A stretch of 64,000 nt of DNA from an uncultured Alphaproteobacteria bacterium (GCA_903897605.1 CAIUCH010000015.1:1-64000), one strand, 5' to 3'. Counted from the first letter of the stretch, positions 1-10,858 are shown. Notes: generated from the sequence alone by a model not told the origin. Program-made: numbers and translations.

Positions 1-765
1 ACCGCCAAGGCGGGTAAGCGATACCGCTATTACATCTCCAACAATCTGGTGACCGGAACCAAGCGCCGCGAACTCACCCCCACTGAAGGCACACGCCTAT
101 CGGCCCAGGAGATCGAGGGCCATGTGATCAAGGCTCTCACCAACTTCCTCAGCGATCCGCAAAAGCTCATGGCCGCCTTCGCATCGGCCGAGCTGGATCC
201 CGCCACAGCCACCAACAGCATCCAACAAGCAAAAGCCTTAAGCCAAGATCTCTCCGGCAAAGACATCAAAGAGATCTACGAGCATGTCAGAGAATTGGTC
301 ACCCGTGTCCAGGTCGATGTTTCATCGATAACCATCACCATAGATCGCAAAGCCATCAGCGAAGAGCTCGGTATTCCAGACCACAACGATCCTGAGAAGT
401 GCATCACCATCACCCTGCCTGCAGAGCTACGCCGTCTGGGCAAAGAGAAGCGGCTCATAATCGCAGCGCACGCGCCGGCATCGAATCAGGATGTGAACCT
501 CATCAAAGCTATCGTTCGTGCGAACAAGTGGTTTGCGCTGCTGAGAGATGGTGACGTTGCATCCATCTCAGACATCGCAAGGTCCGAGAAGCTGCAACGT
601 TCTTATGTGAGCGCGCTGGTGCCGTTTGCCTTCCTAGCACCGGACATTACCCAGGCTATTTTGGAAGGCCATCAGCCCTTGGGTTTGACGCTTGATCGTC
701 TTTTGCATCTCTCGCCGCTTCCACTCGAATGGTCAGCGCAGAGATCTGCCCTCGGTCTCAACTAA
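1..765 (+). CDS. Large serine recombinase / resolvase-family site-specific recombinase, C-terminal part (5' truncated by window edge)
   Basis: Frame open from base 1: TAKAGKRYRYYISNNLVTGTKRRELTPTEGTRLSAQEIE..., typical of the region after the zinc ribbon in large serine recombinases; stop at 765. Confidence 0.75.
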   Translation, partial: TAKAGKRYRYYISNNLVTGTKRRELTPTEGTRLSAQEIEGHVIKALTNFLSDPQKLMAAFASAELDPATATNSIQQAKALSQDLSGKDIKEIYEHVRELVTRVQVDVSSITITIDRKAISEELGIPDHNDPEKCITITLPAELRRLGKEKRLIIAAHAPASNQDVNLIKAIVRANKWFALLRDGDVASISDIARSEKLQRSYVSALVPFAFLAPDITQAILEGHQPLGLTLDRLLHLSPLPLEWSAQRSALGLN

Positions 766-994
766 GGTCTAACTCAATCGCAAATGGCGCCAGTATTGGG
801 CCATCATTGCGTCGCTCATAGATCGGGACCGTAAGTCCAAAAACGGCCTCCGGAGAAAAACCTCCATGATCGGCCTAAAACCACCCGTTTTGCTGCCAGA
901 GACTGACGCAGAATAGGTTTTGTGGCCGACAAGGCTTTGAAACTACGCGGCTATTTTGGAGAGCTGGAGAATGCCACTTGGAGAGCAAACTGAG

Positions 995-1068
995 TGGTTG
1001 GGGGACTAGGATTCGAACCTAGACAGGCAGAGTCAGAGTCTGCAGTCCTACCGTTAGACGATCCCCCA
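995..1068 (-). tRNA. tRNA-Gln (anticodon CTG), CCA encoded
   Basis: Reverse complement TGGGGGA TC GTCTAACGGTAGGAC T GCAGA CTCTGAC TCTGC CTGTC TAGG TTCGAAT CCTA G TCCCCCA A CCA; all cloverleaf stems pair. Confidence 0.95.
1032..1068. repeat. att-like direct repeat, copy in intact tRNA-Gln (5' half)
   Basis: gtcagagtctgcagtcctaccgttagacgatccccca matches 6404-6440 with one mismatch (t/g at 1054). Confidence 0.85.
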
Positions 1069-1205
1069 AAACTCTCGTTTTGGATCAAGCACTTACAGGG
1101 CGAAAGTTGGACAGGCTGAAACAATCAGCGGACTCCTACCTTCGCAACTGCTTCTAGCCAAGTTCATGCCTTATCGGCAAGCCGCATTGCCCCTCTCGGC
1201 TGGAT

Positions 1206-3197
1206 ATGCCTGAATTCGCGCAAATCTTGGCTGTGGGGGCCGGTATGTCAGAAGAAACCGCAGGGGCGGATTCTGCCCCAGAAAGTCCGGGCGCGGGCGT
1301 TGATCCTGTCGCCGTAGCGCTGGCGCTTGGCGGTGCATCCCAGGCACAGGCCGATGCCTATCTTAATAAGCAGGCGCACCTCGCCGATCTGCAAGCCCAT
1401 CATCTGCGCGAGCAATTCAAGCAGCTCAGGCCTTCCTTGTGGCAGGCACGGCTGGGCGTGTTGTTGCGGGTCGCCACCGTTCTGGTTGGTCTGGCAGTGG
1501 TCGCGGTGCTGGGTTTTCTGGTGTGGGACGCGGCCAATGCCCAGGGGCTGGTGATCGACGCCTTTTCGGTGCCGCCCGATCTAGCCGCGCGGGGGCTCAC
1601 AGGCGAAGTGGTGGCGACCCGCTTCCTGGATCAATTCAAGGCGATGCAGGCGGCAACGGAATCCGAGCGCCCTGCGGATACCTACCAAAACAACTGGGGC
1701 TCGGAATTGAAAGTCGAGATTCCCGACACAGGCCTCTCAGTGGGCGAGTTGGGCCAAATGCTGCGTGATCGTTTCGGCAATGTCAGCCATGTCACGGGCG
1801 AGGTGGTGCGCACGCCTTCGGGCATCGCTGTCACGGCGCGATTGGGCGATGCCACGCCCAAAACATTCACCGGGCCGGAAAGCGGTTTTGACGATCTCGC
1901 GCGCCGTTCGGCGGAAGCGATCTATCGCGCCAGCCAACCCTATCGCTTTGCCGAATATGTTGCGAACCAGGGCCGCTATGGCGAAGCCTTCGCCGTGATC
2001 TCCGATCTCGCCACTAGTGGGCCGCCCGGCGAGCGCGGCTGGGCCTATACCGAATGGGGCATGCTGGACATGTACGGCCATGGCGATCTACCCGCAGCCA
2101 TCCGGCATTGCCTGAAGGGGCGTGCCGTCGGCGGCGAATCGACCGTGGCGGCTGACATCTGCCTGACCAACGCCCAGGTCTGGTCCGGTCATGACGAGGC
2201 GGCGCGGGCGCTTGCCCCCGAACTTGCAAAGAGCGCGCAAATCCGGGCACCCGGCGTGACCGAACAATATTTCGAGAACAACAAGATCGTTTCGGTCGCC
2301 TATCTCGAATATGTCAGGGGCGATCTTCTGCAGTCGGCCAAGGATTTTACACGCGCCGAATCCGCGCCGGATTTCAATGGCTCCGTGCAGATGATGCCCG
2401 CCATGGCGGCGATGACCTATGCGCAGGATCATGATTCCATGACCGCCGCCCGAATTATGGGCGATCTGGAACATAGCGGAGACACGGATTTTCTGAAGGC
2501 AGATGCACTTTACGCCTTGCTTGGCCTGCCAGCCTATTGGATCGCGGCGGATCGCGGCGATTGGAGTGCGGCTCTATCGCACGCCCGCGCTGCGGATTCC
2601 TGGCTGGCTGCGCGCCAAAAGGACGATCCTGTGCTGGGCGCACTGTTGGGCCGGATGCGCCCGGTCTGGACCTTGCCGCTGGAAGCGTTGGCCGAAGCGA
2701 AGACTGGCGACATGACCGCTGCCGAGACGCGGATCGCCGATACGCCACTGGATTGTTATCTCTGCCTGCGCGTGCGGGGCCAGATCGCGGCGAACAAAGG
2801 CGATGCGGATAGCGCCAACCATTGGTTCGACAGCGCCGTCAAAGCCGGGCCGTCACTTCCCTTTGCCTATGCCGATTGGGGTCAGGCGTTGCTGGCGCGT
2901 GGCGATGCGCCGGGCGCAATAGCGAAGTTCACCATCGCTAATCAAAAAGGCCCGCACTTTGCTGATCCGCTAGAAGGCTGGGGCGAGGCATTGATGGCGC
3001 AGAACCGCTCAGACCACTCGCTGACAAAGTTCGAAGAGGCTAACAAATACGCGCCCAATTGGGGACGGCTGCATCTCAAGTGGGGCGAAGCGCTCAATTA
3101 CGCGGGAAACAAAGAAGAGGCGCGGAAGGAATTCGTTAAAGCTGCGACGCTCGAACTGACGCCAGCGGAAAAAGCGGAACTGACACACCATTCATGA
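1206..3197 (+). CDS. Single-pass membrane protein with C-terminal TPR repeats
   Basis: TM segment (VLLRVATVLVGLAVVAVLGFLVWDA) followed by TPR-like repeats (FAYADWGQALLARGDAPGAIAKFTIANQKGP, ADPLEGWGEALMAQNRSDHSLTKFEEANKYAP); start could be 1245. Confidence 0.75.
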   Translation: MPEFAQILAVGAGMSEETAGADSAPESPGAGVDPVAVALALGGASQAQADAYLNKQAHLADLQAHHLREQFKQLRPSLWQARLGVLLRVATVLVGLAVVAVLGFLVWDAANAQGLVIDAFSVPPDLAARGLTGEVVATRFLDQFKAMQAATESERPADTYQNNWGSELKVEIPDTGLSVGELGQMLRDRFGNVSHVTGEVVRTPSGIAVTARLGDATPKTFTGPESGFDDLARRSAEAIYRASQPYRFAEYVANQGRYGEAFAVISDLATSGPPGERGWAYTEWGMLDMYGHGDLPAAIRHCLKGRAVGGESTVAADICLTNAQVWSGHDEAARALAPELAKSAQIRAPGVTEQYFENNKIVSVAYLEYVRGDLLQSAKDFTRAESAPDFNGSVQMMPAMAAMTYAQDHDSMTAARIMGDLEHSGDTDFLKADALYALLGLPAYWIAADRGDWSAALSHARAADSWLAARQKDDPVLGALLGRMRPVWTLPLEALAEAKTGDMTAAETRIADTPLDCYLCLRVRGQIAANKGDADSANHWFDSAVKAGPSLPFAYADWGQALLARGDAPGAIAKFTIANQKGPHFADPLEGWGEALMAQNRSDHSLTKFEEANKYAPNWGRLHLKWGEALNYAGNKEEARKEFVKAATLELTPAEKAELTHHS

Positions 3198-3315
3198 GCT
3201 AACAATCCGCAGAGACTCCACCACCCACGCCGGAGGAACCGTCAGTGGAAGTCCACCACAAACCGAAGCCCGTTCATGACGTGCGCTGCTTGGTGGCGCA
3301 CGCCCGCACAGGGAA

Positions 3316-3390
3316 GTGTCCAACTTTTTCGGTTGATGCAGCAAATTCAGGGTGTCTGGAGTCGCGTGTTGAGCGTCTGGAGTTGGACAC
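3316..3390. repeat. Perfect 10-bp inverted repeat GTGTCCAACT ... AGTTGGACAC
   Basis: Arms 3316-3325 and 3381-3390, 55-bp spacer; 11-mer aaagttggaca also present at 1103-1113. Confidence 0.6.
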
Positions 3391-3420
3391 GCTCTAAAGA
3401 AATCAACGGTTTACGGATAA

Positions 3421-3711
3421 CCTACCGGTAGACGATCCCCCAGAACCGGGCGGAAAGCCCTTTGGGACCGCCCGTTTAGACCAGCCAGCCGCCCCTTTCA
3501 AGGACGCCTTTGGGTAGGCGCGTGGCCGCCCCCGGAGCGCGTCCTAATGCTTCTGAATCTGGCCGCGGATCTCGCCATTGGCATAGGCTTGGCTGTGCAG
3601 GTCGACATACATCTTTCCAGCCAGCAGCACGTTTGCCTGTTCGGGCGTCAATGTCACTTTGCCGGTGACAGGCGATTCTGACACGGAAAAAACCGCCAGC
3701 GCGCCCGCATT
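3421..3711. repeat. Direct repeat copy 1: partial tRNA-Gln 5' end + tRNA leader + 3' end of CHRD gene
   Basis: Aligns base for base to 6419-6709 (offset 2998) with only about six mismatches over 291 bp. Confidence 0.95.
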
Positions 3712-3789
3712 ACCGCAGCCGTAACAAAAGGTAATCCACGCGCGAGGCGGTATCGGGATTGTCTGATTTTGCGCTGGGGAACGATACAT
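3544..3789 (-). pseudogene. CHRD-domain protein 3' fragment (duplicate of the end of the gene at 6542-7003)
   Basis: C-terminus VAVFSVSESPVTGKVTLTPEQANVLLAGKMYVDLHSQAYANGEIRGQIQKH shared with 6542-7003; N-terminal part unrelated and derived from the junction. Confidence 0.85.
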
Positions 3790-4513
3790 ATATTTGCTTT
3801 ATATCCTCCATCGATCCCTGTGCCATCAGTGGGTGGATCTTCAGCATGGCGAACATCGGGGTAGCCGTGACCTTTTTCAACAGGCTTTCTAGCACTTCGG
3901 TAATTGGGGGTACCGTCTTTCGTAGATCAAGTCCGCGTGCGTCGAAGGCATCGCCCCATCGCGGATCGACGATGAACAGGGTTGGTCGGTCTTCGATATA
4001 AGCGTCGCACTCTGTCCAATTTCCCTGGTGCAATTGCAGATCGTCAATCCTGAGTCGGCCGAAGACGCGCAGACGCGCGAAATTGCGCCGTATTAAGTTC
4101 ATCACATCGCCACTATTATCAAGGCCGATGGCGCGGGTTGCTTTGGTCGCGCGCGCTACATGGAACAGGAGATTGCCGGAGCCCACAAACGGATCGATCA
4201 CATCGGAAACACGCACACCGATCTTGGCCAGTGTGTTGGCCACGCTCCGACCCAGAAATTCTGCATGCCCGTCCCTTGTGAGCTCGACCGCCGTACGTCC
4301 GCGAATTCGGATTCCGAGACAATGCCAAGCCAGCGGGACCATACCAAACAGCCGCAAATCGTTTGGGTTTCCGGCCAGTTCCCATCCCGCGCGCCGGACA
4401 TCGCCGAGGGTCAGCTGCTTGCTTTCCCACGGTGCATTAAGAAAGCGGCGGCGCGTAGCAAAATAGGAGGATTCCTGCTGTGGGCTGCCTTGGCCATCCG
4501 ACTCACGCCCCAC
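3710..4513 (-). CDS. SAM-dependent methyltransferase, RNA-methylase/TGS1-like Rossmann fold
   Basis: Motif I VIDPFVGSGNLLFHVARATKATRAIGLD; motif IV-like FIVDPRWGDAF; start codon uncertain. Confidence 0.65.
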   Translation of the reverse strand: MGRESDGQGSPQQESSYFATRRRFLNAPWESKQLTLGDVRRAGWELAGNPNDLRLFGMVPLAWHCLGIRIRGRTAVELTRDGHAEFLGRSVANTLAKIGVRVSDVIDPFVGSGNLLFHVARATKATRAIGLDNSGDVMNLIRRNFARLRVFGRLRIDDLQLHQGNWTECDAYIEDRPTLFIVDPRWGDAFDARGLDLRKTVPPITEVLESLLKKVTATPMFAMLKIHPLMAQGSMEDIKQIYVSFPSAKSDNPDTASRVDYLLLRLR

Positions 4514-4694
4514 GTCAGCCCCGCCAGGAAAATTCCGCTAACAGATAGCGTAATCCCTACAACACCCCGTTAACAATTTAGCATCCGGATTACTCTAGAA
4601 TTTCGCCGCAAAGTTTTGCGGATTAATTAATAATGCTTACCGGCTCACATGGCATCCCATCTCTGCCAAACCACAAGCACAAACGGAGTGCCAC

Positions 4695-5561
4695 GTGGCA
4701 GATGGTTTGAAAGCGCATACCCATCAGGATCGAGCCCGAGTTGTCGAGGCGCTAATTCCGCTAATCAAGCGTCACATGGGGCGCGAGCTAGTGGCGCTCG
4801 CAGCGTCGGGGTCGTTCGCAAAAAACAGTGACGGGCCCTATTCGGATATTGATTTAATTGGCTTTGTAAAAAGACCTCAAGATGATGATAGGAAAATCGT
4901 AAACATAATTTTCGATGGGATGTTGATTCATATTTGGTTCCTTACGCCTGCGCAATATCTGCATATTCATAAAAGAAAAATCAACGTCGAATGGGTTTTT
5001 GCAGGATCAAACTCTCTCGTCCCGCTGCTCAATGCATCATTGATTTGCGAGCTTGCTCAAGCTCCATGCAATCAATTGCCTAATGAATATTTGAAAACAC
5101 TCCGGGAATATTGGCCGCAGGTTCAAGAGGCAGCTGCCAAGTTTTTGACGGCCATATCGCGCAACGACACGGCGGTTCTACCAATTCTATATTGTGGAGC
5201 TATAGAAAAAATATGCATTGCATTGTCATTTCTGAACGCACGCCCATTCACAACGAGGGCCGCGATTTTTGAGGAGACGCGGAAATTTCCGAAAGTGCCG
5301 GCACATTTTGCAGCGCTTTTGCCTCCTCACGGTTTGGAACTCGAGCCTAAAGTTCTTTATGAGAGAATTCTAACTGTGTTCGCAGAGACGGAAGCCCTAC
5401 TTTATTCGAGCGGTCTGACCCTCTGCGAACAAAACTTGGATGCGTTCGTGAAGCCTTTGTCTATGAATGAAATGATCCGCCGCCGGTTTTGGATCAACCG
5501 TATATTCCGAAAAGTGGTGACTGTTCGCGACAAATTGCAGCTTAAGCTCGGATCGGCCTGA
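4695..5561 (+). CDS. Nucleotidyltransferase-domain protein resembling kanamycin nucleotidyltransferase (ANT) architecture
   Basis: GSFAKNSDGPYSDIDL motif (GS...DxD) plus helical C-terminal half with LNARPFTTRAAIFEETRKFPKVPAHFAALL; GTG start; visibly lower GC than neighbours. Confidence 0.65.
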   Translation: MADGLKAHTHQDRARVVEALIPLIKRHMGRELVALAASGSFAKNSDGPYSDIDLIGFVKRPQDDDRKIVNIIFDGMLIHIWFLTPAQYLHIHKRKINVEWVFAGSNSLVPLLNASLICELAQAPCNQLPNEYLKTLREYWPQVQEAAAKFLTAISRNDTAVLPILYCGAIEKICIALSFLNARPFTTRAAIFEETRKFPKVPAHFAALLPPHGLELEPKVLYERILTVFAETEALLYSSGLTLCEQNLDAFVKPLSMNEMIRRRFWINRIFRKVVTVRDKLQLKLGSA

Positions 5562-5771
5562 CCGGCTCTTTTTGTACCAAGCGGTTTGAGAAACTGTCTT
5601 GGAAAGGACGCTGATTATGCCAAAAAATTGGTTTAGCCCCTAGTAGACCGTGACAGTGGTTACTCACTGAGGGATGGCGTCGAAACAGATGAGCGAATGT
5701 CCGTCGTGAGCAAAGAGTAGGGTTTCAACAGCGCGCGGAAGATGTTCGGTGTTGACGCGGCGACCTGCATA

Positions 5772-6233
5772 TTATTGATGCAGCCAATCCACCAATCCGC
5801 CGGGAAAAAATGCTGAATTGGTGATAGCGATTGGGCCGGTCTCCAAAACCAAGTACATCGCGCTGACGCCAGATGAGTGATGTGTAAAACCTTGCCAGCC
5901 TGTGACGATGTGGATAAGGGCCGGGCCCACGTCAGCCAGTAGGCGATGAGCGTCCCGGACTACAATGACGAGCGGCGATTGGAAGGTGAGGCGTTCAAGG
6001 TTTTCGAGGAGCGCTTGAAATGAGCCGGACCTCACGCCACATGAAATGGCGATATTGTCAAAAAGCGTGGTTATGCCGCCGCCTTTATATTGAATGTCAA
6101 TCAATCTCGCTTGCTTAATAGCAGGCCATTGTTCGGGAAATTTGGCCTCTTTGGCGACCGCAAAAACTCTTGGTTCGCCGCCCAACCAAGGTCTGGGATA
6201 TGGCTGCAAAATGAATTCAGAATTATCGTCCAT
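5772..6233 (-). CDS. Barstar-like (RNase inhibitor family) protein
   Basis: LIDIQYKGGGITTLFDNIAISCG...SFQALLENLERL...LVIVVRDAHRLLADVGPALIHIVTGWQ follows the barstar-domain pattern; no search run. Confidence 0.45.
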   Translation of the reverse strand: MDDNSEFILQPYPRPWLGGEPRVFAVAKEAKFPEQWPAIKQARLIDIQYKGGGITTLFDNIAISCGVRSGSFQALLENLERLTFQSPLVIVVRDAHRLLADVGPALIHIVTGWQGFTHHSSGVSAMYLVLETGPIAITNSAFFPGGLVDWLHQ

Positions 6234-6403
6234 CTGAACTATTCGCCCAGAATTTTCGTGTGGCAGGATACCTAGGACTCTAGCACTTCTCGGCTTGAGC
6301 GGCTTCGATCTGATCGAGAAACGTTACGACTGGGTCGAGGATTAAACGATCAGGCCGAAAGCCGGGCATTTTAAACCGGAGGACGGTTGAACAGCTCGTC
6401 AGC

Positions 6404-6440
6404 GTCAGAGTCTGCAGTCCTACCGGTAGACGATCCCCCA
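6404..6440. repeat. att-like partial tRNA-Gln 5' half (anticodon arm, D arm, 5' acceptor strand)
   Basis: gtcagagtctgcagtcctaccggtagacgatccccca = 5' half of the tRNA at 995-1068, one mismatch; homology stops inside the anticodon loop. Confidence 0.9.
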
Positions 6441-6709
6441 GAACCGGGCGGAAAGCCCTTTGGGACCGCCCGTTTAGACCAGCCAGCCGCCCCTTTCAAG
6501 GACGCCTTTGGGTGGGCGCGTGGCCGCCCCTGGAGCGCGTCCTAATGCTTCTGAATCTGGCCGCGGATCTCGCCATTGGCATAGGCCTGGCTGTGCAGGT
6601 CGACATACATCTTTCCAGCCAGCAGCACGTTCGCCTGTTCGGGCGTCAATGTCACTTTGCCGGTGACAGGCGATTCTGACACGGAAAAAACCGCTACCGC
6701 GCCCGCATT
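6419..6709. repeat. Direct repeat copy 2 (partner of 3421-3711)
   Basis: See 3421-3711. Confidence 0.95.
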
Positions 6710-7003
6710 TTCGCCCGGTGCCGCCGGGCCATGAAGATCGATCCTGGTCGGCGCCGCGCCGTCATAAGTCACGTAATAATCAAGCTGCCGCGTTTCGCTA
6801 TCGTAAGTGAATTGCGCTTCGCCATAGGCGTCGCTTTTGGTCTGCGGCACCACCGAATTCCCAAATAGATGTGCGGCCAGCGAGGCGGTTTGCGCATCGG
6901 CGGCGGAAATGACCGCCAGGACAAGCGCCCCCGCCAAAGCGGATATCCGCCATATTTTCCCTGTCATCTGATTCAACATCCGATCCATGCGATTGGGTGG
7001 CAA
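6542..7003 (-). CDS. CHRD-domain secreted protein
   Basis: Signal peptide then SLAAHLFGNSVVPQTKSDAYGEAQFTYDSETRQLDYYVTYDG...GEIRGQIQKH (CHRD). Confidence 0.85.
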   Translation of the reverse strand: MPPNRMDRMLNQMTGKIWRISALAGALVLAVISAADAQTASLAAHLFGNSVVPQTKSDAYGEAQFTYDSETRQLDYYVTYDGAAPTRIDLHGPAAPGENAGAVAVFSVSESPVTGKVTLTPEQANVLLAGKMYVDLHSQAYANGEIRGQIQKH

Positions 7004-7008
7004 ATTCT

Positions 7009-7611
7009 TCAGTCGTAGTGCTTCACCGGGAATGGCCGGTCGTCGGGATAGAAGCCATCCTTGTTGGGCATCTGCACCTTCGGCAGGGACTTGGCATCCA
7101 TCACCGCATTCTTGCCGACGATATTGCCGTCGCCGAGAATGAACGCCACCAGCGCATAGACTTCATCGGGTTTCAGCGAGCCGGGCGCGGTATAGGGCAT
7201 GGCGCGGATGATGTAATCGTAAAGCGTACTGGCATAGGGCCAATAGCTTTCCACCGTGATCTTGAATTTGGGCGTGTTAAGCGTGCCGCGCCCGCCGATC
7301 AGCGCCGGGCCGCCGCCTTGCGGCAAATTGGGATCGCGCACGCCTTCCAGCTTGGCGCCATGGCAGGAGGCGCACTGTTCGCCATAAATCTGCTGTCCCA
7401 CTTTATGGGTGCCGCTGCCGGCGGGCAGACCCTTGCCGTCGGGCCGCACATCCTTGTCCCAGGCGGCGATGTCGGCCTCGGTCGCGGGTGTGCCGAAAGG
7501 ATAGGCGCTGCCACCGGGATAGCCGCTCTGCTGTCCCGACACCGTCAGCGGCGTCAAGGCGACGCCCAATGCCGTCACGGCGCCAAGCAGATATCTAGCC
7601 GTTGAGAACAT
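7009..7611 (-). CDS. c-type cytochrome, SoxD/SorB-like sulfite dehydrogenase subunit
   Basis: Signal peptide, GEQCASCHGAKLEGVRDPNLPQGG haem-binding motif; directly follows soxC-like gene. Confidence 0.8.
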   Translation of the reverse strand: MFSTARYLLGAVTALGVALTPLTVSGQQSGYPGGSAYPFGTPATEADIAAWDKDVRPDGKGLPAGSGTHKVGQQIYGEQCASCHGAKLEGVRDPNLPQGGGPALIGGRGTLNTPKFKITVESYWPYASTLYDYIIRAMPYTAPGSLKPDEVYALVAFILGDGNIVGKNAVMDAKSLPKVQMPNKDGFYPDDRPFPVKHYD

Positions 7612-8944
7612 TGGTCACGCTCCCATCCGGTGAAATCTTCCAGCTCTGAATGCCGTTGTAATGATAGGTCGGCCCAACGCCTTCGGTCCGGGTGAGGAAG
7701 GATTTGGTGGGCTGGACATAACCGGTCTGGTCAGTGGCGCGGCTTTCGATGACGGCTTCGCTGCCGTCCCAGGTCCAGGGAAAGCGGAAACGAACATGCG
7801 CCTTGGGCAACACCGGCTCTTGCAACGAGGCGAGATTCCAACTCTTGCCGCCATCAGTGGTGATCTCCACCCGTTCGATCGGCGCGCGGCCCGACCAGGC
7901 CAGGCCGGAGATTTCATAGAAACCTTTCCCTGGCAGGCGCATGTCGCCGGACGGAAAAGTGATCAGTGACTTGGCCTCCATCACCCAGGTGAACTGGCGC
8001 GCCTTGCCGGTCAGCGTAATGAGATCGGAATATTTCGAAGTCTCTTCGCGGGTCATGAAAGGCTTATCGCCGATCTTCAGACGCCTGAGCCATTTGATGT
8101 TGATGTTGCCTTCCCAACCGGGAAGGATCAGCCGCATCGGATAGCCATTCTCGGGCCGGACCGCCTCGCCATTCTGGGCATAGGCGACGAAGGCATCATC
8201 CATGATCTTGTCGATGGGCACGCTGCGCGACAGCATCGCGCCGTCCGCGCCTTCGGCCAGCACCCAGGCGGCGCCATCCTTGACGCCGACTTGCGCCATC
8301 AAGGTGGAAAGGCGCACGCCCGTCCATTCCGATGTGCTGGTCAAGCCATGGGCTTCCTGCGCCGTCTTCTGGCTGGCGCTGCGCGAAGCGGCGTTGGAAT
8401 TGCCCGAGCATTCGATGAAGATGGTGCGGGAGATCGAGGGAAAGCGTTTCAGATCCTCCACCGAATATTTCATCGGCCGGTCCACCATGCCATGGATGAT
8501 CAACCGGTGGTCGCGTGGATCGATGGCGGGAATGCCATTGTGATGGCGCTCGAAATGAAGACCGCTGGGAGTGATGATGCCCACGCCGGCCTGCAGCGGC
8601 GTCAGGCTGGAGGTGCCACCGATCGTGGCCAGCCGCATCACTTTTTCAAACGGTGCGCGTTCGCCGTAATCGCTTTTGGCGAGCCGGCCGGGCACGCTCC
8701 AGGACGGATCGAGCGCGCCAGAAGCAGCCGAAGACGCTTCAGCGGCCAGGGCGGCGCGGGCGGGAAGGATGGCCGCCGCCGCGGTGAGCAGGCTTCCGTT
8801 GCGCAGGAATTGGCGGCGGCTGGCGCGGGGAAACATGCCCTCCTTGCAGGCGCAGTCCTCTTGCGCTGGCGGCGCGAAATCCAACTCCGTCGCCGGCTCG
8901 CCGATTTGCGGCTCGCCAGTCACCTGCGATCGATCCATTTTCAT
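7595..8944 (-). CDS. soxC: Sulfite dehydrogenase, molybdopterin subunit (SoxC-like)
   Basis: TAT motif SRRQFLRNGSLL; FIECSGNSNAASRSASQ, PGWEGNINIKWLRRLKIGDKPFMTREETSKYSD typical of the SoxC/sulfite oxidase family. Confidence 0.8.
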   Translation of the reverse strand: MKMDRSQVTGEPQIGEPATELDFAPPAQEDCACKEGMFPRASRRQFLRNGSLLTAAAAILPARAALAAEASSAASGALDPSWSVPGRLAKSDYGERAPFEKVMRLATIGGTSSLTPLQAGVGIITPSGLHFERHHNGIPAIDPRDHRLIIHGMVDRPMKYSVEDLKRFPSISRTIFIECSGNSNAASRSASQKTAQEAHGLTSTSEWTGVRLSTLMAQVGVKDGAAWVLAEGADGAMLSRSVPIDKIMDDAFVAYAQNGEAVRPENGYPMRLILPGWEGNINIKWLRRLKIGDKPFMTREETSKYSDLITLTGKARQFTWVMEAKSLITFPSGDMRLPGKGFYEISGLAWSGRAPIERVEITTDGGKSWNLASLQEPVLPKAHVRFRFPWTWDGSEAVIESRATDQTGYVQPTKSFLTRTEGVGPTYHYNGIQSWKISPDGSVTNVLNG

Positions 8945-9158
8945 CTCCCTCTTATCGGGCAAAATCGCGGTGATTGCCCGCCGGCCCGAGCCAGAGATCG
9001 CGCGAGATCACCGCCCGTCCCCGATTGCCGCGATGGTGCCCGAAGTCGCTGTTTCCGCACAGTCATTTTTCCGGCCAGCCCAGGCCCGATTGAATTGTCC
9101 GCACCGCATTTGCCCATGCTAGCGTCCGGGGCGGATCACCCCGCAAACCGAGGCGGAA

Positions 9159-10184
9159 TTGCAGCAAAACCGGGCATCTGCGAGCGGACAGAAGGGCGAA
9201 TCGGTCAAGCCGGCCGGGCCGCTCATGGCCGTGCTCGACCTGGGCACCAACAATTGCCGTCTGCTGATCGCGCGGCCACAGCCGCCCGACAGTTTCGGGG
9301 TGGTGGATTCCTTTTCGCGCATCGTGCGCCTGGGGGAAGGGGTGGGGGAGACCGGACGGCTTTCCGACGCCGCCATCGACCGCACCTTGGCGGCCTTGGA
9401 CATCTGCGCCCAGCGCATCGCCCATCATCGCGTCCGCCATGTCCGGGCCATTGCCACCCAGGCGGCGCGGCAGGCGTCCAATACGGAAAAACTGATCGCC
9501 CGCGCCCTTGACGAGACCGGGATCGCCCTCTCGGTGATCTCGCCGGAGGAGGAAGCGGATCTGGCGGCTCTGGGTTGTGCGCCGCTGGTCGGACGCAAAT
9601 ACCGGGGTGGGTTGATCTTCGATATCGGCGGCGGTTCGACCGAAATCGTCTGGCTGCACAAGGGCGAACGCGGATTGGAAAGACGCTTTGCTGCCTCGCT
9701 GCCGGTGGGTGTGGTCAATCTGGCGGAGACGTATGGCGATGTCGCGCGCGGCCGTGCCGGTTTTGAAACCATGCAAAGGGCGGTGCAGGCGCGCTTCGCG
9801 CCCTTGGCGGACCAAACCCGGGCCTTCGACCCGGCTTGCGAGCATCTGCTGGGCACCTCCGGCACCGTGACCACTTTGGCCGCCATCGCGCTCCAATTGC
9901 CGCGCTACAACCGCAGCAGGGTCGATGCCAGCTGGCACCAGACCAGCCAGCTTCTGTCGGTGGTGGAGCGGATTTCACGTCTCGACCAGCAGGCGCTGGC
10001 GAAGATTGGCGCCATCGGGCCGGAACGCGCCGATCTGATGTTGGCCGGCTCCGCCATTTTTGCGGCCATCTGCGCGCTTTGGCCCAGTCCCATGTTGCGG
10101 GTGGCGGATCGCGGTCTGCGTGAAGGCATGCTGCGCCAGATGCGTGACGAAATCCAGGCGCCGCGGCGAAAGGCTTCGGCATGA
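9159..10184 (+). CDS. Ppx/GppA phosphatase family protein (start may be 9225)
   Basis: MAVLDLGTNNCRLLIARPQ; FDIGGGSTEIVWL; LLGTSGTVTTLAAI; RVADRGLREGML. Confidence 0.92.
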   Translation: MQQNRASASGQKGESVKPAGPLMAVLDLGTNNCRLLIARPQPPDSFGVVDSFSRIVRLGEGVGETGRLSDAAIDRTLAALDICAQRIAHHRVRHVRAIATQAARQASNTEKLIARALDETGIALSVISPEEEADLAALGCAPLVGRKYRGGLIFDIGGGSTEIVWLHKGERGLERRFAASLPVGVVNLAETYGDVARGRAGFETMQRAVQARFAPLADQTRAFDPACEHLLGTSGTVTTLAAIALQLPRYNRSRVDASWHQTSQLLSVVERISRLDQQALAKIGAIGPERADLMLAGSAIFAAICALWPSPMLRVADRGLREGMLRQMRDEIQAPRRKASA

Positions 10185-10858
10185 AGGGGCCCGCGGGATC
10201 GGGGCGCGGTGAAGTGCGCGTCAAGGTGAAGAAGACGCGCGGTCTCAAGCCTTCGTCACGCGAATGGCTGGCGCGCCAGCTCAACGATCCTTATGTCCAG
10301 GCCGCCAAGGCGAAAGGCTATCGCAGCCGCGCGGCCTTCAAGCTTCTCGACCTGGACGCCAAATTCCATTTCCTGAAAAAAGGCGCACGGGTGCTGGATC
10401 TGGGCGCGGCGCCGGGCGGCTGGAGCCAGGTCGCCGCGGCGCGTGGCGCCAGTGTGGTCGCCGCCGATGTGCTCGAGATGGAGGAGATCCCCGGCGTTAC
10501 CTTTTTCCAGGCCGATCTCACCGACGCAGGAGTGCCCGCGATGCTGAAAAAAGCACTGGGCAGTCCCGCTGATTTGGTGCTGACCGACATGGCGGCGCCC
10601 ACCACCGGGCATCGCGCCACCGATCATTTGCGCACCACCGCCCTGGTCGAGATCGCGCTGGAGGTGGCGGAAGATTGCTTGCGCCCCGGTGGGGCTTTCG
10701 TCGGCAAAGTGTTTCAGGGCGGCGCCACCAATCAATTGCTGGCACGGATCAAGAAATCCTTCCGCGAAGTGAAGCATGTGAAGCCGCCCTCCAGCCGCGC
10801 GGATTCCGTCGAGCTTTATCTCGTGGCGCTTGGCTACAAGAAAACCTCCGGTGACTGA
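10181..10858 (+). CDS. rlmE: 23S rRNA (uridine-2'-O-)-methyltransferase RlmE/FtsJ
   Basis: KAKGYRSRAAFKLLDLDAKFHFLKKGARVLDLGAAPGGWSQVA; VLTDMAAPTTGHRATDHLR. Confidence 0.95.
   Translation: MKGPAGSGRGEVRVKVKKTRGLKPSSREWLARQLNDPYVQAAKAKGYRSRAAFKLLDLDAKFHFLKKGARVLDLGAAPGGWSQVAAARGASVVAADVLEMEEIPGVTFFQADLTDAGVPAMLKKALGSPADLVLTDMAAPTTGHRATDHLRTTALVEIALEVAEDCLRPGGAFVGKVFQGGATNQLLARIKKSFREVKHVKPPSSRADSVELYLVALGYKKTSGD

Follow-up and report, generated by a model that had tools for sequence, protein, structure and literature searches.

Tandem insertions on the 5′ side of a tRNA-Gln(CTG) gene in an uncultured alphaproteobacterium, one of them with a phage-type attachment-site layout

The window analysed here (64,000 nucleotides, C15:1-64000) covers the opening 64 kb of an 84-kb contig belonging to a draft genome of 60 contigs (G000) from an uncultured Alphaproteobacteria bacterium. 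It carries an intact but hybrid tRNA-Gln(CTG) gene, detected by ARAGORN on the minus strand at 995-1068. The first 37 nucleotides of this tRNA, a stretch whose final base is also the last one of the anticodon loop, occur again on the same strand at 6404-6440 with 36 of 37 positions identical, and no second match of at least 24/37 to this segment was found elsewhere in the 64-kb window. The recurrence of the tRNA 5′ half, noticed with its single mismatch in a first-pass annotation, is therefore confirmed. A repeat search revealed a third 5′ copy, corresponding to tRNA nt 1-22, at 3421-3442 (minus strand). It is identical at 21 of 22 positions to the tRNA block at 1047-1068 (minus strand; acceptor 5′ strand and D-arm to nt 23), after which the two sequences diverge, with TTATCC on the displaced side versus ACTGCA in the tRNA. 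Moreover, the 296 bp at 3421-3716, comprising this remnant, a native tRNA promoter and the 3′ end of a CHRD gene, are 97% identical to 6419-6714. The two remnants delimit element 1 (1069-3420, 2352 bp) and element 2 (3443-6403). On the far side lie CHRD, cytochrome c and molybdopterin oxidoreductase genes on the minus strand, followed by Ppx/GppA and RlmE-like genes on the plus strand (6542-10858); Ppx and RlmE are the usual neighbours of tRNA-Gln(CTG) in the family.

Empty sites were identified in relatives G014, G024, G016, G066, G095 and G098, where the tRNA directly adjoins a CTTGAAAGG...GGTCTAAACGGGCGGTCCC leader, and in same-genus relatives the genes found beyond this leader on the tRNA 5′ side are usually Ppx and RlmE. 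In the window, this conserved promoter and leader is present at 6441-6515 (minus strand) and again from 3443 on, and is absent beside the intact tRNA, whose 5′ flank differs. Since the leader accompanies only the displaced copies and not the intact gene, the native 5′ part was displaced together with its promoter, the fragment at 6404-6440 being the displaced native 5′ half that the first-pass annotation had recognised. The AACGG/ACCGG difference and the dissimilar 5′ flanks reported there were also found as described. Its expectation for empty sites, namely both a CHRD gene and the ACCGG variant, was not borne out: relatives mostly have Ppx/RlmE next to the promoter, and they read AACGG or AATGG, so that ACCGG, present in the displaced copies, characterises the fragment displaced in this lineage and does not represent the ancestral state.

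The same annotation had proposed a single island of 5.4 kb that had entered at the anticodon loop, and the end of the 37-nt identity at 6404 does coincide with that loop. Insertion on the 5′ side with an element-borne 5′ part and promoter stands, as two tandem insertions instead of one. A single island is contradicted by the separate 22-nt remnant at 3421-3442, with its phage-type junction and its own copy of the native promoter, as well as by the unequal GC content of the two halves, and we consider it very unlikely. Nor does the anticodon-loop crossover apply to the insertion that made the present tRNA (1069-3420), which shares only 22 nt with its displaced fragment. Mobile DNA has entered the 5′ side of this tRNA at least twice, each time replacing the leading portion of the tRNA together with its promoter.

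Element 1, probably the younger of the two insertions, contains one gene, encoding a 663-aa TPR protein (TPR_2; 1206-3197, plus strand), and no phage structural genes. Paralogues of this TPR family are found in 33 of the 96 family genomes, often as tandem arrays; arrays of genes of about 1.9 kb were seen in several genomes of the genus (G004:C40, G003:C31 and G008). Between the TPR gene and the tRNA lies an element-borne flank (1069-1205, minus strand) with a TGTAAG motif (reverse complement of 1092-1097), and a similar flank is present in G011 and G015. We infer that this flank supplies a replacement tRNA promoter, a proposal that rests on conservation because simple consensus scans found no sigma-70 promoter in either flank.

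At the opposite end of element 1, an octamer AGTTGGAC (3381-3388) is situated 32 nt from the displaced 22-nt block (3421-3442, minus strand) and is followed further out by its inverse, GTCCAACT, at 3318-3325. Six junctions have this layout in common, which reads, from the displaced block outward, 32 nt, an octamer, 55-56 nt and the exact inverse octamer: those of element 1 in G000, of G015, G018 and G088, of the MAG contig L179 and of the IMG/VR contig L180. The octamer is GTCCAACT in the window, L179 and L180, GTCAGACT in G015 and G088 and GTCAAACT in G018. Beyond these six junctions, no palindromic octamer pair of this form was detected in the 2.5 Mb of two-strand sequence from all loci. In the 96 genomes, the pattern GTCAGACTN{50,62}AGTCTGAC matched only the G015 and G088 junctions, which were also the only places with an exact GTCAGACT pair. 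When perfect palindromy was not demanded, viral contigs L200 and L201 gave matches that were rejected as false, being located inside genes or repeats. Octamers of the same kind are present on the tRNA side, 35-37 nt from the tRNA 5′ end (in the window AGTTGGAC at 1105-1112, 36 nt away; in G088 with one mismatch), and these, which coincide with -35-like sequence, carry less weight than the distal arms. As the octamer varies from element to element and is nevertheless matched within each, the octamers are putative arm-binding sites, read by each element's own integrase.

Among the 96 family genomes, and setting aside the second whole tRNA-Gln genes of G087 and G089, extra copies of the 22-nt block were restricted to G000, G015 and G088, the only three cases with both ends on one contig; in G018 the displaced block, with native promoter and Ppx, is on a short contig without an intact tRNA. 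The G015 element (2404 bp) has both ends intact, lacks an integrase and encodes an HslV-like peptidase as well as a protein of 143 aa that matches a candidate defence model. In G088, whose genome is a single 5.0-Mb contig, 64 kb separate the displaced block from the intact tRNA, with the native leader, Ppx and RlmE outside the displaced block. This island encodes portal, tape measure, DnaB-like helicase and replication proteins together with a Phage_integrase, an intact tyrosine integrase ORF of 407 aa ending 153 bp before the tRNA, and is a complete prophage. Close to its integrase end, the prophage also carries a reverse transcriptase gene (L141 7402-8787) with matches to several defence-associated RT models. 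The existence of the same junction type in independent genomes, including this single-contig one, makes it scarcely credible that the region reflects chance similarity or faulty assembly, even for a 60-contig draft in which a contig start is located 1 kb away.

The G088 integrase retrieved only itself and one 26% match in the family, and the idea of an integrase common to the family was dropped. Its peptide patterns had no match in the genome or viral contigs, and five remote phage relatives were identified. No integrase was found among the ORFs checked in 1069-6403, and neither G000 nor the rest of the family has a close relative of the G088 enzyme; element 1 is therefore left without an assigned enzyme. 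The viral contig L180, on which the octamer of the window also occurs, encodes a holin and a spanin, and its 40,966-bp record gave no Phage_integrase match. Element 1, which has the attachment-site arm layout of the G088 prophage, would be a prophage remnant, or perhaps a small cargo element transported by such phages, and the G015 element may likewise be a remnant or a small phage-moved element.

For tyrosine integrases, strand exchange takes place inside sequence that the two partners share. Because the shared block measures 22 nt in G088 and element 1 and 23 nt in G015 (one added upstream base), the anticodon loop is excluded as the crossover point in these three cases, and strand exchange for element 1 would have taken place in the tRNA D-arm, within the first 22 nt. 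Lambda-type temperate phages integrate by means of arm-type integrase sites, and the elements described here resemble them in having short repeated sites at a fixed distance flanking the core and, in G088, a tyrosine integrase gene next to one att site. They differ from the lambda type in that the putative binding sites form an inverted octamer pair whose sequence changes between elements, and in that element 1 has neither an integrase nor phage genes.

Element 2 is of another kind. It encodes a methyltransferase-like protein of 267 aa with weak matches (3710-4513, minus strand), a nucleotidyltransferase distantly like ANT(4′)-I (4695-5561, plus strand) and a 153-aa ORF without convincing family match (5772-6233, minus strand); none of the three proteins has a known Pfam domain. 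Given the weakness of the ANT(4′)-I resemblance (32 bits against a family cut-off of 350), no resistance role is claimed for the nucleotidyltransferase. The inner end of element 2 (3443-3716, minus strand) is the 97% copy of the native tRNA promoter and CHRD gene 3′ end. Since the 37-nt remnant at 6404 holds bases that were left with the tRNA when element 1 entered, element 2 is probably the older insertion. It shares 37 nt with the tRNA, up to the last anticodon-loop base as in islands integrated at this loop (subsite A), and may be such an island or a Campbell-type homologous insertion. In the latter case, a circle carrying a diverged CHRD-promoter-tRNA 5′ segment would have recombined into the chromosome, so that its cargo came to be flanked by the 296-bp duplication. 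The duplication of host flank at both ends with 97% identity, the lack of both integrase and attachment-site arms and the low GC content of the cargo (47-53% against 60-66% around element 2) all favour a Campbell-type event. The outer remnant, on the other hand, stops precisely where the anticodon loop ends, which is a classical site of crossover, and we judge the Campbell-type origin to have slightly less than an even chance.

The 3′ side of the tRNA is occupied by a different class of recombinase. A large serine recombinase gene, truncated by the contig end so that only its C-terminal part is present, lies at 1-765 (plus strand; phrog_14161, E 2e-26), outside the 5′-side insertions. At 966-1000 (plus strand), a conserved 35-nt sequence that forms the end of serine-recombinase elements adjoins the 3′ end of the tRNA; it recurs with 0-2 mismatches in 9 of the 96 family genomes and goes with this first recombinase type. 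The recombinase gene, or its 3′ end, borders the tRNA on that side in G000, G006, G046, G095 and G096, and a different serine recombinase does so in G015 and G059; in all, the two types were observed at this position in at least seven genomes (window 1-1000; L041, L035, L142, L150, L169 and L170). In L167 (G014:C22) and L058 (G017:C398) the 35-nt end is followed by TGTAGGCAGTG in place of the tRNA, perhaps a tandem or attP-like junction, and G017 has a 114-bp tandem copy as well. The far ends of the serine-recombinase elements were not found. When Islander was published in 2014, no serine recombinase was known to target tRNA genes (PMC4383910), and the arrangement seen here is a possible instance of such integration. 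Two further observations concern this side: TrbI/VirB10-like, DUF736 and other conjugation-type genes to the left of the tRNA in G015 (L035 1-5300) may belong to an integrative conjugative element, and in G009 a displaced 3′ half of this tRNA is found about 9.7 kb away on the 3′ side (L145 7505-7548), as in an ordinary 3′-fragment island.

The serine recombinase was considered as the agent of the 5′-side insertions, since in the window 230 bp separate the end of its gene from the tRNA and a different one abuts the tRNA in G015. We rejected this candidate as highly improbable, given that the same recombinase goes with a native 5′ side in G006, that G015 has an unrelated recombinase and yet the same 5′ junction, and that the complete 5′-side element in G088 has a tyrosine integrase.

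Islands bearing a 5′ tDNA fragment are a minority among those catalogued by Islander (159 of 3919; PMC4383910). As in those islands, a displaced 5′ fragment is found here upstream of an intact tDNA in the same orientation, the tRNA is restored from the island and relatives keep an empty site. Islander requires an integrase inside the island, which element 1 does not have, and recognises crossovers at the anticodon loop, the T-loop and the T/acceptor junction only (PMC4383910), whereas here the identity breaks off within the D-stem. Older sublocation work outside the literature covered may contain an earlier instance of D-arm use. The archaeal pTN3 integrates in the 5′ half of tRNA-Leu through 41 bp including the anticodon and separates the tRNA from its promoter (PMC5495485), a change of promoter upon integration that has been called rare in bacteria (PMC8371274). 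The present locus is similar in that the 5′ half is restored and the tRNA is cut from its original promoter (PMC5495485, PMC8371274), but only 22 nt without the anticodon are shared, and, in contrast to the pTN3 integrase gene, which is split on integration, that of G088 is intact at 407 aa. Islands with 5′ tRNA fragments are known but rare, and the D-arm crossover with its conserved arm layout looks new.

Taken together, the remnants, the 22- and 37-nt blocks, the layout of the six junctions, the empty sites and the integrase-bearing prophage beside the tRNA, all observed directly, make it probable that the 5′ side of tRNA-Gln(CTG) serves as an attachment site at which element 2 and then element 1 inserted, the latter by site-specific recombination in the D-arm with phage-type arms. 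Element 2 would have entered first on the tRNA 5′ side, and element 1 would then have recombined between it and the tRNA, within nt 1-22, bringing a replacement 5′ block and promoter. Its arms are of the type carried by a set of temperate phages that use tyrosine integrases, the G088 prophage being the complete example. Only tentatively do we propose that the D-arm is a further sublocation for bacterial integrases, exploited by phages that combine a fixed arm layout with element-specific octamers, and that integrase-less elements of about 2.4 kb with such ends depend for their movement, in trans, on phages whose octamer matches theirs. The two integrase-less elements of 2352 and 2404 bp, both with intact ends, make this cargo-element hypothesis testable, and the fixed arm layout provides a sequence signature for detecting such elements. 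A D-arm crossover, if true, would extend the list of three tRNA sublocations used in island finding. Finally, replacement of the 5′ end must bring a promoter too, so that expression of a host tRNA passes to the mobile element.
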